Assembly: GCA_024687125.1 (NCBI GenBank)
Contig: JAILFA010000081.1
Span: forward strand, 23,632 to 87,631
Direction of reading: 5' to 3'
Length of the DNA: 64,000 bases
DNA from: Lachnospiraceae bacterium
Lineage (GTDB): Bacteria; Bacillota; Clostridia; Lachnospirales; Lachnospiraceae
Shown here: one piece after another, positions 43,843 through 57,036 of the stretch
How positions within the stretch are numbered: the stretch's first letter is position 1
Layout: each line of letters begins with the position of its first letter
Made by a program: the position numbers and the translations under genes
Notes under the pieces: generated by a model
Told to the model about the DNA's origin: nothing
Databases searched by the model: none
Seen by the model: the letters and a program-made list of their open reading frames with translations, nothing else

Positions 43843-44244
43843 CTATTTTCTGATCAGTTCGCTCAGTCTCTTCCCATAAAAGAAATCTCTGGTGATGCCG
43901 TCAAACTCTTCCCACATGGGCAGTGTCTGGCATTTTTCCTTTCTGGGGCAGTCATAGTTCTTGTCGGCAAGGCATACGACAGGAGAGAGGGTTCCTTCCA
44001 TGAGCTCGAGGATCTCTCCGATCGTGTAGGCCTCAGGCCTGCGACTCAGGCGATAGCCGCCGTGCTTTCCACTGGAGCCGACGATCAGTCCGCCCGTGAC
44101 CATGTCCTTCGCGATGATCTCCAGGTACTTTTTGGAAAGTTCCTGGCGCTCGGCCACATCCTTAAGCGGAACAAAACTGTCCTCACCGTGCTCTGCAAGA
44201 TCGATCATGATACGGATCGCATAACGTCCTTTCGTTGAAAACAT
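43843..44244 (-). CDS. Rrf2-family transcriptional regulator
   Basis: MFSTKGRYAIRIMIDLAEHGEDSFVPLKDVAERQELSKKYLEIIAKDMVTGGLIVGSSGKHGGYRLSRRPEAYTIGEIL; Cys residues in the usual C-terminal region. Confidence 0.93.
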   Translation of the reverse strand: MFSTKGRYAIRIMIDLAEHGEDSFVPLKDVAERQELSKKYLEIIAKDMVTGGLIVGSSGKHGGYRLSRRPEAYTIGEILELMEGTLSPVVCLADKNYDCPRKEKCQTLPMWEEFDGITRDFFYGKRLSELIRK

Positions 44245-44400
44245 ATCTGTCACCTCATATTGTTACATGCCCTGTCTGACAATAACCTATTCTACTACAG
44301 GATAATTCCAAGATGCAAGTATATATGTAAAATCTAATAAAATCAATATTATTTGGCAGGAAAATCATTTTATTATATAAAAAAAGGCATTATAAACCTA

Positions 44401-44429
44401 TTGACATAGTAGATAGATAGTGATAATCT
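44401..44429 (+). promoter_or_regulatory. Sigma-A-like promoter for the sulfur/encapsulin operon, overlapped by a candidate Rrf2 operator
   Basis: TTGACA - 17 nt - TAATCT; cctattgacatagtagatag at 44397-44416 is inverted relative to cctattctactacagg at 44286-44301. Confidence 0.6.
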
Positions 44430-44457: not shown

Positions 44458-45693
44458 ATGGAATTCAACACGAAACTCCTGCATGGCAGGGCCGTAAAAA
44501 AATACGCAGACGGAGCGACACTTCCGCAGATATCGCAGGTAAGTGCGTTTCAGTACGACTCTGCACAGGAGCAGGAGGATGTGTTTCATCACAAGGCGGC
44601 CGGTTTTGCCTATTCCAGGGTTGCGAATCCGACAGTGGCAGCCTTTGAACAGCGGATCAATGAGATCGAGGGCGGAAATGCCGCGATCGCCTGCTCCTCC
44701 GGTATGTTTGCGATCACGCTTTCTCTTCTCAACATGCTCTGCGCAGGTGATGAGATCATTGCGGGAATGGGACTTTACGGAGGCAGCATCGATCTTTTTG
44801 AAGACCTCACGAAGTTTGATATCCGGACACGCTATGTCGCGCACATGACCCCAGAGGAGATCGAGCCGCTGATCAATGAAAAAACCAGAGTGATCTACGG
44901 CGAGGTGATCAGCAATCCTTCTCTGGAGATCATGGACATCAGGGCGGTCGCAGATCTCGCTCATGAGCATGGCCTGCCGCTGATCGTCGACAGCACGACG
45001 GCATCGCCGTATCTGATCAATCCGATCACGCTGGGTGCAGACATTGTTGTGCATTCCACGACGAAATACATCAACGGGAGCGGCAATTCGATCGGCGGGA
45101 TCATCATAGACAGCGCGAAGTTCAAGTGGGATTTTGACAGGTTCCGTGCTCTTGACGGGTACCGGCAGTTTAAGAATCTGGCATATACCATCCGTCTCAG
45201 GACGGATATCTGGGAGAATATGGGTGGCTGTATGGCGCCGATGACAGCCTTTATGAATGTCATCGGACTTGAGACCCTGGGGCTGAGGATGCAGCGGATC
45301 TGCGACAATGCGGCAGAACTCGCGAAGAATCTCGCAGAACTGGATGGCGTAGAGGTGAACCACCCGTCGCTGACGGGATGCACAGGGTATGAACTGGCAA
45401 ACAGCCAGCTGCATGGGAAAGGCGGCGGGATCCTCACTTTCCGTGTGGGATCCAGAGAGCGGGCGTATGAGGTGATCAATTCCCTGAAGTACGCGGTAAG
45501 AGCGACATCACTTGGAGACACCAGGACGCTTGTAATCCATCCCGCATCTACGCTTTATATCAGGAGCACACAGGAGCAGAGGATCGCGGCAGGGGTGTAT
45601 GACGACCTGATCCGCGTGAGCGTCGGGATCGAGGATGTGTCGGATCTGATCGAAGATTTTACGAATGCCATAAGAACTGCAAAAACAGCATAG
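44458..45693 (+). CDS. Cys/Met metabolism PLP enzyme (MetY/O-acetylhomoserine sulfhydrylase-like)
   Basis: FAYSRVANPTVAAFEQRINEIEGGNAAIACSSGMFAI; PLP Lys in ADIVVHSTTKYINGSGNSIGG. Confidence 0.92.
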   Translation: MEFNTKLLHGRAVKKYADGATLPQISQVSAFQYDSAQEQEDVFHHKAAGFAYSRVANPTVAAFEQRINEIEGGNAAIACSSGMFAITLSLLNMLCAGDEIIAGMGLYGGSIDLFEDLTKFDIRTRYVAHMTPEEIEPLINEKTRVIYGEVISNPSLEIMDIRAVADLAHEHGLPLIVDSTTASPYLINPITLGADIVVHSTTKYINGSGNSIGGIIIDSAKFKWDFDRFRALDGYRQFKNLAYTIRLRTDIWENMGGCMAPMTAFMNVIGLETLGLRMQRICDNAAELAKNLAELDGVEVNHPSLTGCTGYELANSQLHGKGGGILTFRVGSRERAYEVINSLKYAVRATSLGDTRTLVIHPASTLYIRSTQEQRIAAGVYDDLIRVSVGIEDVSDLIEDFTNAIRTAKTA

Positions 45694-45707
45694 AACAGGA
45701 GGAAAAC

Positions 45708-45917
45708 ATGAAGATCACGGTAGGTGGAGAAACAAAGGAAGTTAAGGACGGGATCACGATCGCCGAACTGATCGAGACGGAAAATGTAGAAACACCGGAG
45801 TATGTCACGGTATCGGTCAATGAAGAGTTCGCGGACAAGGACAGCTATGCTTCGCAGGCTCTCTCCGAGGGTGACACGGTGGAATTTCTGTATTTCATGG
45901 GCGGAGGGCGTGCATAA
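45708..45917 (+). CDS. ThiS/HcyS-like sulfur carrier protein, C-terminus -GGGRA
   Basis: 69 aa beta-grasp protein; ends EFLYFMGGGRA, so the Gly-Gly is capped by extra residues. Confidence 0.9.
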   Translation: MKITVGGETKEVKDGITIAELIETENVETPEYVTVSVNEEFADKDSYASQALSEGDTVEFLYFMGGGRA

Positions 45918-46729
45918 TGGCTTTTACCAACGAACAGCTCGAACGCTATTCCAGGCATATCATCCTGAAAGAAGTCGGCGCGAAAGGACAGAAAAAGATC
46001 TGTGCCGCAAAGGTTCTGATCATCGGTGCGGGAGGCCTTGGGGCGCCGGCAGCGCTGTATCTCGCGGCGGCCGGGGTCGGGACGATCGGCATCGCGGACG
46101 CGGATGAGGTCGATCTTTCCAATCTGCAGAGACAGGTCATCCATACGACCCGTGATATCGGCAAGCCCAAGGTGGAATCCGCCAGGGAGACCATGAACGA
46201 CATCAATCCGGATGTTCAGGTGAATACCTACCATACTTTCGTGACGAGTGAAAACATCATGGATCTCATCGCAGACTATGATTTCATCCTGGACGGCACT
46301 GACAATTTCCCTGCGAAGTTCCTGATCAACGACGCTTGCGTCATGGCGAAAAAGCCGTTCTGCCACGCAGGGATCATACGATTCAGGGGGCAGCTCATGA
46401 CCTGGCTTCCCGATCAGGATCTGCCGTGTTATCGCTGTGTGTTCAAAGAGCCCCCGCCAAAGGATGCCGTGCCTACCTGCAAGCAGGCCGGCGTGATCGG
46501 TGCCATGGCCGGCGTGATCGGATGTCTTCAGGCAATGGAAGCCGTGAAGTACATCGTCGGAGCGGGAGATCTCCTGACAGGGCAGCTGCTCACCTTTGAC
46601 GCACTCAAGATGGATTTCCATAAGGTGGCTCTGCCGAAGAGAAGCATAAAATGTGCCGTCTGCGGTGATCATCCGACGATCACGCAGCTCATCGATTATG
46701 AGCAGGCGGTCTGTGAGTTAAAGCATTAG
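45917..46729 (+). CDS. ThiF/MoeB/HesA-family E1-like adenylyltransferase
   Basis: LERYSRHIILKEVGAKGQKKICAAKVLIIGAGGLGAPAALYLAAAGVGTIGIADADEVDLSNLQRQVIH. Confidence 0.95.
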   Translation: MAFTNEQLERYSRHIILKEVGAKGQKKICAAKVLIIGAGGLGAPAALYLAAAGVGTIGIADADEVDLSNLQRQVIHTTRDIGKPKVESARETMNDINPDVQVNTYHTFVTSENIMDLIADYDFILDGTDNFPAKFLINDACVMAKKPFCHAGIIRFRGQLMTWLPDQDLPCYRCVFKEPPPKDAVPTCKQAGVIGAMAGVIGCLQAMEAVKYIVGAGDLLTGQLLTFDALKMDFHKVALPKRSIKCAVCGDHPTITQLIDYEQAVCELKH

Positions 46730-46744
46730 ATCAGGTAGAAAACC

Positions 46745-47164
46745 ATGAAGATCACGATACGACAGGAAGACTATGACAGGATGCTCGCCCATGCGAGAAA
46801 AGAGCTGCCCAACGAGGCCTGCGGCCTGATCGCCGGAGAGGACACAGAGGACGGCGTACGGCAGATCCGCTTTGTCTATCTGCTGACGAACACGGACGCG
46901 TCCAATGAACACTTTACGCTGGATCCCAGGGAACAGCTGCAGGCAGTCAAGGATATGCGGGCCAACGGCTGGAAGCCGCTGGGCAACTGGCATTCCCATC
47001 CGGAGTCACCGAGCCGTCCGTCCGAAGAGGACAAGCGTCTGGCATATGACAGCAAGGCGAGCTATCTGATCCTGTCACTCATGGACAGGGAGAATCCTGT
47101 CCTGCATTCGTTCCATATTGAAAACGGTGTTTCGGAAGCGGAAGAACTGGAGGTCCTGCCGTAA
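46745..47164 (+). CDS. JAMM/MPN+ (Mov34) metallopeptidase
   Basis: NEACGLIAG ... NWHSHPESPSRPSEEDKRLA: HxHx7-10D-type JAMM motif. Confidence 0.93.
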   Translation: MKITIRQEDYDRMLAHARKELPNEACGLIAGEDTEDGVRQIRFVYLLTNTDASNEHFTLDPREQLQAVKDMRANGWKPLGNWHSHPESPSRPSEEDKRLAYDSKASYLILSLMDRENPVLHSFHIENGVSEAEELEVLP

Positions 47165-47196
47165 GAAGCGGCAGTTCCGCGGAGAGGAGGAAAAAC

Positions 47197-47451
47197 ATGG
47201 CTGTCAGTGATCACAATATCACAGATAAGATCGATATCACCGATGTCACCTGCCCGATCACCTTTGTCAAGGCCAAGGTGGCGATCGAGGAACTGGAAGA
47301 GGGAGAGATCCTGCAGATCCACTTAAACAGCGGGGAACCGCTTGAAAATGTGCCCCGAAGTCTCGGAGAAGAGGGCCATGAAGTGCTGGAAAAGATCGAT
47401 AACAACGACGGCACCTGGGAACTCATCGTAAAACGCGGACAAGAGGTGTAG
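47197..47451 (+). CDS. TusA/SirA-like sulfurtransferase family protein
   Basis: DITDVTCPITFVKAKVAIEELEEGEILQIHLNSGEPLENVPRSLGEEGHEVL, the TusA fold signature with CPIT in place of CPxP. Confidence 0.88.
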   Translation: MAVSDHNITDKIDITDVTCPITFVKAKVAIEELEEGEILQIHLNSGEPLENVPRSLGEEGHEVLEKIDNNDGTWELIVKRGQEV

Positions 47452-47453
47452 AA

Positions 47454-48914
47454 ATGGGCGTCAGGATCATCATCGCGGCGTCGCTCCGCACCTTTACGAA
47501 CCGGACGCCGGAAGTTGAAGTACAGGCAGATACTGTTTCCGCGGCGCTCAGCGCATTGACGGACGAGTACCCGGAGGCGGCCAGAGGTCTGTTTGATGAG
47601 AACGGCGATCTGCGGGGATTTGTCAGTATCTATGTGAATGACCGCGATATCCGGACGCTGAAAGGACTGGGCACAAAGCTTTCCGACGGGGACGAGATCT
47701 ATCTGCTCCCTGCCATCGCCGGAGGTGCCTGTGAGAGCGTGATCAGCACCGAACGGATGAAGGAAGTCAAAATTGAAGACAAGGAGATCCGGCGGTACAA
47801 CAACCATCTGCAGCTCAAGGAGATCAGCATCAAGGGGCAGAAACGGATCATGGCCGGACGCGTGCTCATTGCCGGGATCGGCGCCCTGGGCGGCGTTGTC
47901 GCGGAACGACTGGCTGCGGCCGGTGTCGGTACGATCGGTCTGGCGGACGACAGGGAGGTCCTGCTCGACGGGCTGCAGGTGCAGACCATCCACAGTTCAA
48001 GGGACATTGACCGTCCGAGGGCAGCCTCCGCCAGGGACCGTCTCAAAAAACTGAACCCGAATGTGACGACAGTCACGTATCAGGATAAGCTGTCCGCGGA
48101 TAACATCGAAGAGATCATCGAAGACTACGACATCGTCGTGGACGCAACGGACAGCTTCGTGACCAGATATCTGATCAGTGACGCGTGTGCACTGCACAAC
48201 AAGCCGGATGTATTCGGCGCGATGTATCAGTTCGAGGGATTTGTCACGGTGCTCTGCACCGGGGACGCTCCCTGCTATCGCTGCCTGTATCCGTCGCCTC
48301 CGCCGGCAGGGATCGTGCCTTCGTGTGCCGCTTCCGGTGTGATGAACGCACTGCCCGGGATCATCGGTTCGCTGATGGAGGCGGAGGTACTGAAGCTTCT
48401 CACGGGGAGCGGTGAGCCGCTGGTCGGCAAGGCGATCCGGCTGGATTCGTGGAATCTCCAGTACCGGATGATCCATACGGCCAGCGATCCGGGCTGTGCC
48501 GTCTGCGGCAGCGCTCCGTCGATCCGCACGGTACAGGATATCGACTACGAGGATTTCTGCGGGCTTCGTGAGGATCCGGACGAGGAACCGATCGAAGGGA
48601 TCGAGGCGGAGGAGCTTGCGAGACGGATCATGAGCGAGGAAAAGATCACGATCATCGATGTGCGGGAACCGCACGAGCGTGCAATCCGGCGATTCCCGGG
48701 AACGCTCGCCATCCCGATCGGCCAGTTGGCAAGAAGACAGAAGGAACTGGACCCTGAGGTCGATACGATCTTTGTATGTAAGGAGGGGAAGCGCAGCATC
48801 CTGGCGATCAGAACGCTGCGTGAAGCAGGGTATACGGGGCCCATGTACAACCTCAAAGGAGGACTTGAGAATGCGGCGCAGATCATCTTCCCGCATGAAG
48901 GGGCATGGTTGTAA
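47454..48914 (+). CDS. MoaD/ThiS - ThiF/MoeB - rhodanese triple-domain fusion
   Basis: N-terminal beta-grasp ending LPAIAGGA; E1-like VLIAGIGALGGVVAERLAAAGVGTIGLADD; C-terminal rhodanese IIDVREPHERAIRRFPG...VCKEGKRS. Confidence 0.92.
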   Translation: MGVRIIIAASLRTFTNRTPEVEVQADTVSAALSALTDEYPEAARGLFDENGDLRGFVSIYVNDRDIRTLKGLGTKLSDGDEIYLLPAIAGGACESVISTERMKEVKIEDKEIRRYNNHLQLKEISIKGQKRIMAGRVLIAGIGALGGVVAERLAAAGVGTIGLADDREVLLDGLQVQTIHSSRDIDRPRAASARDRLKKLNPNVTTVTYQDKLSADNIEEIIEDYDIVVDATDSFVTRYLISDACALHNKPDVFGAMYQFEGFVTVLCTGDAPCYRCLYPSPPPAGIVPSCAASGVMNALPGIIGSLMEAEVLKLLTGSGEPLVGKAIRLDSWNLQYRMIHTASDPGCAVCGSAPSIRTVQDIDYEDFCGLREDPDEEPIEGIEAEELARRIMSEEKITIIDVREPHERAIRRFPGTLAIPIGQLARRQKELDPEVDTIFVCKEGKRSILAIRTLREAGYTGPMYNLKGGLENAAQIIFPHEGAWL

Positions 48915-48972
48915 GAAGGCTTTTGCGCCTTTATCAACAAAGTAAACAGTTAAGAAAGGAAGGGAAAGAAAC

Positions 48973-49923
48973 ATGGCAAAAGACGTACAGGAAGGCATCA
49001 ACGCATTGGGGGCGCAGGCAGCATATAATCTTGCCAATGTCACCAAGACCAGACCGCAGTATGGGGCACTCACGCCGAAGTGGCTGCCCAGGCTTCTGGA
49101 GTTCAAAGGACTCGAAACAGGGATCTACCGTGTCAATCGTGTCGTGGAAGGCGATACACCTCTGGATGCACTCTGCTCCGCAACGAAGAAGAGCGATATC
49201 ATCCCGCAGGGTTACGTGGAGTATCAGACAGAGCCCAGAGAATACCGACTGAACTCTATTTCCGCGATCATCAATGTCAATACCGCGATCGAGGATGTCT
49301 ACAGCGCACCCTATGATCAGGTGCAGGAGCAGCTCGCTCTCGCGATCGACTCCCTGCGTGAGAGACAGGAGAGTCAGCTCATCAACAATGACGACTACGG
49401 TCTTTTGAAGAACGTACCCGATTCCCAGCGCATCGAGACGCTGAACGGAGCGCCGACCCCGGATGATCTGGACGAGCTGATCACCAAGGTCTGGAAGGAG
49501 CCCTCTTTCTTCCTGGCACATCCCAGAGCTATCGCGGCGTTTGAACGCGAGTGCACAAAGCGCGGAGTTCCGCCGATGACGACCAATATCGCGGGCGGCA
49601 CGTTCATTCTGTGGCGCGGTATCCCGATCATTCCCACAGACAAGCTGATGGTGGACGGCCAGAAGAATCCCAAGGCGAAGAGCGGCAAGACCAACATCCT
49701 GCTGATCCGTACGGGTGAAGCAAAGCGCGGAGTGGTCGGCCTTTATCAGGCGGGGCTTAAGAATGAAGAATCCCGCGGTCTGTCCGTCAGATTCCGGGGG
49801 ATCGACGACAAGGGCGTTGCTTCCTATCTGCTTTCCCTTTACTGCTCGGCAGCGATCCTCGCGGATGATGCCATTGCGTGCCTTGAGGATGTGGAGGTAG
49901 GAGAATACTATGATTACGATTGA
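48973..49923 (+). CDS. Family 2A encapsulin shell protein (SrpI-like)
   Basis: [107 protein letters not shown]-type block; [18 protein letters not shown]...[10 protein letters not shown]. Closely matches recalled SrpI. No cNMP-binding insertion, so 2A rather than 2B. Confidence 0.93.
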   Translation: [316 protein letters not shown]

Positions 49924-51451
49924 TAACGGACCGGAGAGCTTCGGGCTTCCGAGTGCGGAAAGCCTCGAAAAGCTGGCCAACTCCATGTGGGAGCCTGCTC
50001 CTGCCGTTGTCGCTGTGCCGGAAACGCCTTTTCAGGAGCCGGAGGCCTTTGCTTCCTGGCCCGGGCAGGCCGCATCCGTGACAAAACCCGTCGAGCATCT
50101 GCTTCCTGCCGATGAGGATGAAAAGAACACGATCCGTGTCGCTGTGCGTGACGCGAACACAGGAGGGGAGCAGGATTCTCTCTATGTGCTGTCCGATCGT
50201 GTAAACGGTGAGCATACCAGGAGAGAAGACGGGATCAACGTCGGCTCGAAAACGCTGGCACAGATCCGTGACGACTTCCCGATCCTCAGGGAGCAGGTCG
50301 GCGGTTTTCCGCTCGTCTGGCTCGACAACGGCGCAACAACGCAGAAGCCCAAGACGGTCATTGACAGGCTTTCGGAGTTCTACACACATGAAAATTCCAA
50401 TGTACACCGCGGCGCGCACGAGCTGGCAGCTCGTTCCACCGATGCCTATGAAAACGCCAGGCAGATCACGGCAGATTTCATCGGTGCGCCGGACAAGGAT
50501 GACATTGTCTTTGTCCGCGGAACGACAGAGGGAATCAATCTGGTCGCAAACGCCTATGTCAAACCGCTTCTTGCACCCGGCGACGAGATCATCCTGAGCA
50601 TCCTGGAGCATCATGCCAATATCGTGCCATGGCAGCTGGTGGCCGCAGAGACCGGTGCAGTGCTCAAGGTCATTCCCTGCGATGAGAGCGGGCAGCTGAT
50701 CCTTCCGGAATATGAAAAACTGTTCACACCATGCACGAAGTTTGTCTCTATCACGCAGGTCTCCAATGTACTGGGGACTGTGACACCTGTGGAGGAGATC
50801 ATCGCCATTGCGCACAGACACGGTGTGCCGATCCTGATCGACGGGGCACAGAGTGTCGCACACATGCCAGTGAATGTCAGTGCCATGGACGCGGATTTCT
50901 TTGTCTTTTCCGGACACAAGATCTTTGCTCCGACCGGGATCGGCGCGGTTTACGGCAAAAAAGCCCTGCTGGACGCAGCAAAACCGTATCACGGCGGCGG
51001 GAACATGATCAAGGACGTCACCTTTGAGCGGACGATCTACAATCCGGCACCGAACAAGTTTGAAGCGGGGACTGGATCCATCGCGGATGCTGTCGGACTC
51101 GGAGAAGCACTGTCCTATCTGACGAGTGTAGGTATGCCTGCGATCCATCAGTGGGAGCAGGAACTGGTTCAGTACGGCATGAAGGAACTGGGTACAGTAC
51201 CGGGACTTCATCTGGTCGGCACAGCACCCGGAAAATCAGGTGCGCTCTCATTTAAACTGGACGGCTATGAGGACGGCGCGGTAGGAGAGTATCTGAACCG
51301 CTACGGTATCGCAGTCCGGACGGGACACCACTGCGCCCAGCCGGTGCTCCGCAGGTTCGGCCTGGAAAGTGTCGTTCGTCCAACGCTGGCATTCTACAAT
51401 TCACACGGGGATATAGACGCTCTGGTCAGGGCCCTTCGCGGCCTGGCATAG
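49910..51451 (+). CDS. SufS-type cysteine desulfurase with ~115-130 aa N-terminal extension (predicted encapsulin cargo)
   Basis: Catalytic part from ~aa 117: IRDDFPILREQVGGFPLVWLDNGATTQKPKTVIDRL...NVHRGAHELAARSTDAYE...FVFSGHKIFAPTGIGAVYGKK...VRTGHHCAQP; upstream ~115 aa is low-complexity and acidic/Pro-rich. Overlaps the shell gene by 14 bp. Confidence 0.93.
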   Translation: MITIDNGPESFGLPSAESLEKLANSMWEPAPAVVAVPETPFQEPEAFASWPGQAASVTKPVEHLLPADEDEKNTIRVAVRDANTGGEQDSLYVLSDRVNGEHTRREDGINVGSKTLAQIRDDFPILREQVGGFPLVWLDNGATTQKPKTVIDRLSEFYTHENSNVHRGAHELAARSTDAYENARQITADFIGAPDKDDIVFVRGTTEGINLVANAYVKPLLAPGDEIILSILEHHANIVPWQLVAAETGAVLKVIPCDESGQLILPEYEKLFTPCTKFVSITQVSNVLGTVTPVEEIIAIAHRHGVPILIDGAQSVAHMPVNVSAMDADFFVFSGHKIFAPTGIGAVYGKKALLDAAKPYHGGGNMIKDVTFERTIYNPAPNKFEAGTGSIADAVGLGEALSYLTSVGMPAIHQWEQELVQYGMKELGTVPGLHLVGTAPGKSGALSFKLDGYEDGAVGEYLNRYGIAVRTGHHCAQPVLRRFGLESVVRPTLAFYNSHGDIDALVRALRGLA

Positions 51452-56637: not shown

Positions 56638-57036
56638 GGGTCAGTAAAGGTTTCGACAGGTCTGGTTGAAGTAGAGAAGCACGCGGAGCATGGTGGTGGT
56701 CTCCTGAATCCGACACCAACTCAATAGATGCCGACTATGAGGCACCTGTTGCTATGGCTGCTTAATCCTTAGGGATTTTTTAGTATCCTTAGCGACGCCC
56801 GGGCTGAAATGCCCGGGTTTCATCCCACGGAAGTAACGCCGCTATAGCTTTCGGGGTTCAAAGAAAGCGGCTGCGCGTCAGTAAGTGAGCTGCGGAGAGC
56901 TGGCGCCAAGTAATCTCCTGAGCCGTCCGGGAAGGACTTTGTTCGTCCGGTCACCCGGGGCGTATGAAGACGGACTAAGCGTGTAGAAGGATGCCGAGAG
57001 CAGGTTTGGACGCGGGTTCGACTCCCGCCTGATCCA
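56638..57036 (+). ncRNA. ssrA: tmRNA
   Basis: 5' gggtcag pairs with 3' ctgatcc; TψC arm GACGCGGGTTCGACTCCCGCC; tag frame ...NSIDADYEAPVAMAA* (gac tat gag gca cct gtt gct atg gct gct taa); adjacent to smpB. Confidence 0.93.

Follow-up and report, generated by a model that had tools for sequence, protein, structure and literature searches.

What becomes of the sulfur that a cysteine desulfurase releases inside an encapsulin shell is the question raised by a locus in a 64,000-nucleotide stretch of DNA from a rumen Lachnospiraceae bacterium (assembly GCA_024687125.1, contig JAILFA010000081.1, positions 23,632 to 87,631), referred to below as the window. Carriers and storage have been named as alternative fates of the sulfur downstream of an encapsulated desulfurase (PMC8049743), and such an enzyme has been reported to store elemental sulfur (Benisch et al. 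2024, to the extent that it is cited in PMC10960027). At positions 44458-51451 the window contains an operon in which the genes of a virus-shaped Family 2A shell and its desulfurase stand together with those of two ubiquitin-like sulfur carriers, E1 enzymes, a JAMM metalloprotease, a TusA-like protein and a MetY-like enzyme. There is, in our estimate, an even chance that this operon represents a sulfur bank plus a withdrawal arm, ending in homocysteine. The more specific reading is put forward tentatively: a compartment-coupled transsulfuration, free of cystathionine and sulfide, delivering homocysteine via JAMM-unmasked carriers, one of which is cut from its own E1-rhodanese.

All eight open reading frames lie on the plus strand, and their identities agree with domain searches. 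In gene order they encode a MetY-like O-acetylhomoserine/O-acetylserine sulfhydrylase of the carrier-linked subfamily (44458..45693; PF01053, 365 bits); a HcyS-like sulfur carrier of the ThiS family (45708..45917; TIGR01683); a HcyF-like E1 adenylyltransferase without a rhodanese domain (45917..46729; PF00899, 284 bits); a HcyD-like JAMM/MPN+ metalloprotease (46745..47164; PF14464, 95 bits; nearest solved structure 2kks); a TusA-like sulfurtransferase (47197..47451; PF01206, 66 bits); MER, a fusion of MoaD (residues 1-91), E1 (~115-349) and rhodanese (~385-473) domains (47454..48914; PF02597, PF00899, PF00581); a Family 2A encapsulin shell protein (48973..49923; PF19307, 310 bits); and a cargo cysteine desulfurase of the SufS type (49910..51451). 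The intergenic gaps, in the same order, are 14, -1, 15, 32, 2, 58 and -14 bp, which confirms the tightly packed, co-directional eight-gene operon with gaps of -14 to +58 bp described in the initial annotation. All eight genes had been named correctly there, with one amendment: the operon MetY lies under the curated MetY cut-off (TIGR01326, 393 vs 495 bits). The span given there was also right, but a divergent regulator gene and an operator-like site outside it count as part of the locus. The grouping is not a matter of chance, since the genes stand side by side and the same linkage recurs in dozens of species.

The shell protein (316 aa) exceeds the curated Family 2A cut-off (NF041162, 479 vs 380 bits, model positions 1-295 covered) and has no cyclic nucleotide monophosphate (cNMP) domain, as is required of Family 2A; its nearest solved structures are 8t6r and 6x8m (SrpI). 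The desulfurase, whose gene overlaps the shell gene (-14 bp), has the Family 2A cargo desulfurase NF041166 as its best model; the score of 752.9 bits (753 when rounded) is under the cut-off of 800 because the disordered N-terminal part is short, the match beginning at profile position 188. The enzyme is also over the SufS cut-off (TIGR01979, 520 bits), and the catalytic GHHCAQP is kept in 83/84 family sequences. Its disordered N-terminus contains the cargo-targeting motif LEKLANSMW (49964..49990, plus strand), which follows a recurring family pattern, LxxLAN-x-(L/M)-(F/W), and resembles LARLANEFFS, the published Family 2A cargo-targeting motif (PMC8049743). The (Y/F)(Y/F)FL pattern of a second published cargo motif, AASPYYFLDG, was found in one of 84 desulfurase N-termini and not in that of the window. 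Shell assembly and uptake of the desulfurase as cargo are predicted from Family 2A membership and the LxxLAN motif. The targeting motif is present in the desulfurase only, the other operon enzymes beginning at their catalytic domains, and synthesis is therefore predicted to proceed outside the shell, contrary to the "encapsulated" synthesis of the initial annotation.

A collection with one genome per species was searched with the shell protein, yielding 80 loci, mostly from rumen Lachnospiraceae, of which 45 were well flanked (7.5 kb or more of upstream and 6.5 kb or more of downstream sequence); linkage was counted within ~10 kb. In the well-flanked loci, MER and the desulfurase are each present in 45/45, HcyS, HcyF and HcyD together in 31/45, and all eight gene kinds in 27/45. 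A second JAMM (JAMM2) and serine acetyltransferase (SAT) are each found in 38/45, the dedicated second JAMM occurring in 61 of all 80 loci. The commonest full order is MetY-JAMM2-MER-encapsulin-desulfurase-SAT-HcyS-HcyF-HcyD-TusA, and a compact form without JAMM2 and SAT is seen in the window and among its nearest kin. The neighbourhood survey thus upholds the linkage with Family 2A encapsulins on which the initial annotation depended, and the linkage is conserved more widely than that annotation could know. Of 61 relatives, 9 had the encapsulin and 11 a close HcyF; 8 had both, 1 the encapsulin only and 3 HcyF only (Fisher p 4.8e-7, kinship not corrected for). Both are rare in 393 Clostridia genomes and coincide in just three (G325, G398 and G000, the genome of the window), so the linkage is clade-specific and not general to Family 2A encapsulins.

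Both carriers of the operon are encoded in masked form. HcyS of the window ends in EFLYFMGGG-RA, that is, it is capped after its glycines, and in 60/60 HcyS carriers MGGG is followed by at least one further residue (R, RA, Q, C, AR and others). Gly-Gly closes the MoaD part in 82/82 MER fusions, and a linker of 20-36 residues, variable in length and sequence, separates it from E1. The capping of every HcyS and the retention of the MoaD Gly-Gly in all these fusions are reported here for the first time. In the window, the Gly-Gly end corresponds to G90-G91 (codons 47721..47726, plus strand), a predicted JAMM cut site; both glycines are invariant in a 29-sequence alignment. The AlphaFold model of MER, built from a shallow alignment (mean predicted local distance difference test, pLDDT, 81), has pLDDT <50 at residues 88-91, which are probably flexible. 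The Cys loop of the rhodanese domain is intact in 86/86, and a PDB fold search with MER retrieved Uba4, MoeB and ThiF relatives. Separate MoaD proteins of relatives end in AGG-RV, AGG-CL and AGG-I.

As a carrier-E1 fusion that conserves a Gly-Gly in its interior, MER likely represents the zymogen of a ubiquitin-like sulfur carrier. A Gly-Gly within a fusion would seem to serve no purpose if it were never exposed, and unmasking of MER by JAMM is predicted. With all HcyS capped and Gly-Gly kept in every fusion, JAMM would have to unmask both carriers, and the single JAMM of the window's clade is predicted to process both HcyS and MER. A JAMM protease, DRJAMM, is known to cut the MoaD-MoaE fusion of Deinococcus radiodurans, leaving a C-terminal Gly (PMC8832034); there, too, a carrier masked by fusion is freed by JAMM, whereas in MER the carrier is joined to its own E1-rhodanese and the cut is a prediction.

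The remaining relay proteins retain their motifs: GxGG(L/I)G for nucleotide binding and CxxC..CxxC in 57/57 HcyF-type E1, E..HSHPx6SxxD in 57/57 HcyD, and Cys-Pro in 56/56 TusA. A HcyS/HcyF/HcyD-MetY route to methionine was reportedly described in Wolinella succinogenes by Krishnamoorthy and Begley in 2011. The window operon holds together an E1 without rhodanese, a JAMM with an intact motif and MetY, and this part of the initial annotation was confirmed down to the capped carrier requiring JAMM, as in the Wolinella HcyS anatomy. The same set (capped ThiS-like carrier, E1 without rhodanese, JAMM, MetY and TusA/SirA) makes up the row 4e operons of Iyer et al. (2006, PMC1779556). The window operon differs from the Wolinella route and from row 4e in having no sulfite reductase or sulfate genes and in being joined to the encapsulin, desulfurase and MER genes.

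Model TIGR01326 spans both O-acetylhomoserine and O-acetylserine enzymes; with it, two other MetY enzymes of the genome score 633 and 553 bits. In the tree, the operon MetY groups with nearly all HcyS/MER-linked MetY proteins in a single clade (100/99), separate from the two canonical paralogues of its genome; the exceptions are two odd enzymes ahead of MER in loci L066 and L072. In these loci a different Cys/Met-family pyridoxal phosphate (PLP) enzyme (L066 1191, L072 2351; 383 aa, 33% identical to MetY) precedes MER, and an operon-type MetY precedes HcyS. The Wolinella enzyme was ruled out as the closest MetY by sequence, as the canonical MetY structures 8sf5 and 7kb0 outscore 3ri6; sequence alone is thus no proof of carrier use by MetY. 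That the operon MetY takes carrier thiocarboxylate as its sulfur donor is a prediction; the tree shows its clade membership.

Comparison of relatives revealed two modules. The HcyS-HcyF-HcyD-TusA module is found with a sulfite reductase-like gene on a contig apart from the encapsulin in G030, G040 and G044, and in genomes without encapsulin in G008, G041 and G056; the module includes sulfite reductase (PF01077) in G008, G030 and G056. The second module is JAMM2-MER-encapsulin-desulfurase-SAT; in G040, G044 and plasmid pACIB of Aliarcobacter cibarius, a CysM-type synthase stands at its head and MoaD is encoded separately. In pACIB (L179, 5493-9955), the CysM-JAMM-MoaD-E1-rhodanese-encapsulin cluster holds IS110 and IS5 elements, the latter splitting E1 from the rhodanese domain. 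Treponema genomes (L037, L077) contain JAMM2-MER-encapsulin-desulfurase-SAT without the HcyS module. The window locus is read as a merger of both modules in which the operon has lost JAMM2, SAT and sulfite reductase. The single relay of the initial annotation, from shell persulfide via a carrier to MetY, holds in outline but missed a second one: MER with its own carrier forms a CysO/Mec-type module, which is the commoner partner of the encapsulin, and the HcyS module occurs in relatives without encapsulin.

A MoaD-like carrier, E1-rhodanese, JAMM and a PLP synthase are shared with CysO-MoeZ-Mec-CysM of Mycobacterium tuberculosis and with row 4c of Iyer et al. (2006); relatives (G040, G044, Aliarcobacter) also share the CysM-type synthase. 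In the window, however, MoaD and E1-rhodanese form a single protein with the Gly-Gly inside it, MetY stands in place of CysM, there is no second JAMM, and no CysM-type PLP synthase was found beside the carrier in the operon.

The encapsulin and desulfurase also occur with neither module (G049, G249, G257, G349), and loci of Azospirillum, Synechococcus elongatus and Variovorax contain SAT, CysK or small rhodaneses only; published encapsulin surveys agree with such simpler neighbours (PMC8346489, PMC8049743). The SrpI/CyD pair of S. elongatus shares with the window the shell family, an adjoining SufS-type desulfurase with a disordered N-terminus and LxxLAN motif, and a nearby Rrf2 gene; the known Family 2A loci examined have SAT, CysK or a small rhodanese only, in contrast to the full carrier/E1/JAMM/MetY relay of the window operon. 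In the openly licensed literature, no paper was found linking an encapsulin to homocysteine and a sulfur carrier protein, or to MoaD.

Three Lachnospiraceae metagenome-assembled genomes (MAGs) each contain a pair of Family 2A encapsulin loci, located on separate contigs (L043/L049, L047/L075, L082/L083), pointing either to two shells per cell or to mixed bins. A contig filed as Fibrobacter succinogenes (L055) has the same gene set, with a shell 82% identical, and represents either transfer between phyla or a misbinned contig.

Upstream of the operon, on the minus strand and divergent from it, is the gene of an Rrf2-family regulator of the IscR/CymR-like type (43843..44253; PF02082, 102 bits; TIGR00738 over the cut-off), copies of which, 70-77% identical, are found near the operon in close relatives. 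Between this gene and MetY lies the near-palindrome CCTATTGACATAGTAG (44397..44412, plus strand), its one exact match in the window, covering the -35 element TTGACA (44401-44406) ahead of MetY. The 16-mer is exact in 25/195 fetched loci (some overlapping), mostly ahead of operon MetY, Rrf2-MetY, canonical MetY or CysK. In the window's genome, the sole other near match, with one mismatch, precedes a MetNIQ-type transporter operon (L198 617-5922, G000:C57) encoding MetN, MetI and a binding protein that fuses family-3 and MetQ/NlpA domains. This sequence is probably an operator for the neighbouring Rrf2 regulator, and the shared site suggests an Rrf2/CymR-like sulfur regulon. Riboswitch control, such as by an S-box, was rejected: Rfam matches were confined to transfer-messenger RNA (tmRNA) in the window (56638-57036, tag ADYEAPVAMAA) and to tRNA in seven related loci.

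The genome of the window is an 86%-complete MAG, and absences from it are provisional. HcyS and the MoaD part of MER are its only ThiS/MoaD proteins over the cut-off. MetA, which would supply the acceptor, is present, and no cystathionine gamma-synthase was found beyond the three MetY-type enzymes. Sulfite reductase (PF01077), absent from the operon, was not found in this genome or in G034.

In the proposed mechanism, the cargo desulfurase, whose LxxLAN motif would direct it into the Family 2A shell, would take sulfur off cysteine, and the sulfane sulfur would be kept in or at the shell. Outside it, the rhodanese domain of MER and TusA would collect this sulfur. JAMM would cleave after the glycines of both carriers, HcyS masked by its C-terminal Arg-Ala and MoaD by its fusion to E1, and the E1 enzymes would adenylate the exposed carriers, sulfur transfer then giving thiocarboxylates. 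MetY would add the HcyS thiocarboxylate to O-acetylhomoserine, and JAMM would cleave carrier-homocysteine to free homocysteine. In sum, sulfur from cysteine would reach homocysteine without passing through cystathionine or free sulfide. The Rrf2/CymR-like regulator would switch on the operon along with a cystine/methionine-type uptake system. What the sequences show is the gene content, the linkage, the intact motifs, the masked carriers, the lack of other carriers in the genome and the shared operator-like site; each chemical step, the source of the carriers' sulfur, its direct transfer and the product, be it homocysteine or cysteine, are inferred.

This mechanism is favoured by the constant presence of MER, the frequent presence of HcyS, HcyF and HcyD and the encapsulin-HcyF co-occurrence; by the masked carriers, only two in the genome, with MetA present and no cystathionine gamma-synthase found; by the missing sulfite reductase and the precedent of a sulfur-storing encapsulin (Benisch et al. 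2024, as far as cited in PMC10960027); and by the operator-like site common to canonical MetY, CysK and the MetNIQ-type transporter. Several points weigh against it. In relatives, the HcyS module occurs by itself together with sulfite reductase and so does not depend on the shell; a PF01077 protein is encoded on other contigs of the close relatives G015 and G018, which would still allow sulfide to be the donor; with two canonical MetY enzymes and a CysK at other places in the genome, the route is not the only one; and the neighbouring SAT and desulfurase genes of 38/45 loci suggest that relatives make cysteine and not homocysteine. Homocysteine is a presumed product in the window, and SAT and CysM-type enzymes point to cysteine in at least some relatives.

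The same machinery may instead yield cysteine: sulfur would be banked while cysteine is plentiful and built back into it from O-acetylserine in times of scarcity, the MetY-like enzyme acting as O-acetylserine sulfhydrylase. SAT accompanies the desulfurase in Azospirillum, S. elongatus and Aliarcobacter as well; in G040, G044 and Aliarcobacter, MetY gives way to a CysM-type synthase; and TIGR01326 covers O-acetylserine enzymes too. We nevertheless consider this unlikely for the window, whose operon lacks SAT and CysM, whose MetY adjoins HcyS as in the homocysteine route, and whose genome already has CysK. It is also rather improbable that two chemically separate systems, the shell and desulfurase handling excess cysteine or iron-sulfur cluster sulfur and the HcyS module assimilating sulfide, share one operon because both answer sulfur limitation. 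The occurrence of the HcyS module without encapsulin or on other contigs, of the encapsulin and desulfurase with neither module, and of a common operator-like site would fit such co-regulation; yet MER, with its rhodanese and carrier, directly adjoins the shell gene in all well-flanked loci, and the merged operon no longer contains sulfite reductase.

Use of the carriers as protein modifiers of the SAMP/Urm1 kind, marking shell, cargo or enzymes, with JAMM as deconjugase, is very improbable: the MoaD part resembles SAMP1 and the JAMM a desampylase, but both are under the curated cut-offs (58 vs 60 and 77 vs 130 bits), and the linkage is throughout to sulfur amino-acid enzymes. Ordinary thiamine or molybdenum-cofactor carriers lying near an encapsulin by chance are scarcely credible. 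HcyS does score above the equivalog cut-off for ThiS (64 vs 37 bits), but in the 86%-complete genome no other ThiS/MoaD carrier over the cut-off and no MoaE was found, and ThiG is represented by one partial match of 25.7 bits with a stop inside; neither the operon nor the recurring neighbours in relatives include thi or moa genes, and this role was rejected.

The operon names specific sulfur acceptors for a Family 2A desulfurase. As these share its operon, retain intact active sites and are conserved in cultured rumen strains, the question of the fate of the sulfur is directly testable. Cultured carriers of the operon include Lachnospiraceae AB2028 (L048), XBB2008 (L052) and KH1P17 (L032). The linkage suggests how sulfur handled by the shell could return to homocysteine or cysteine.

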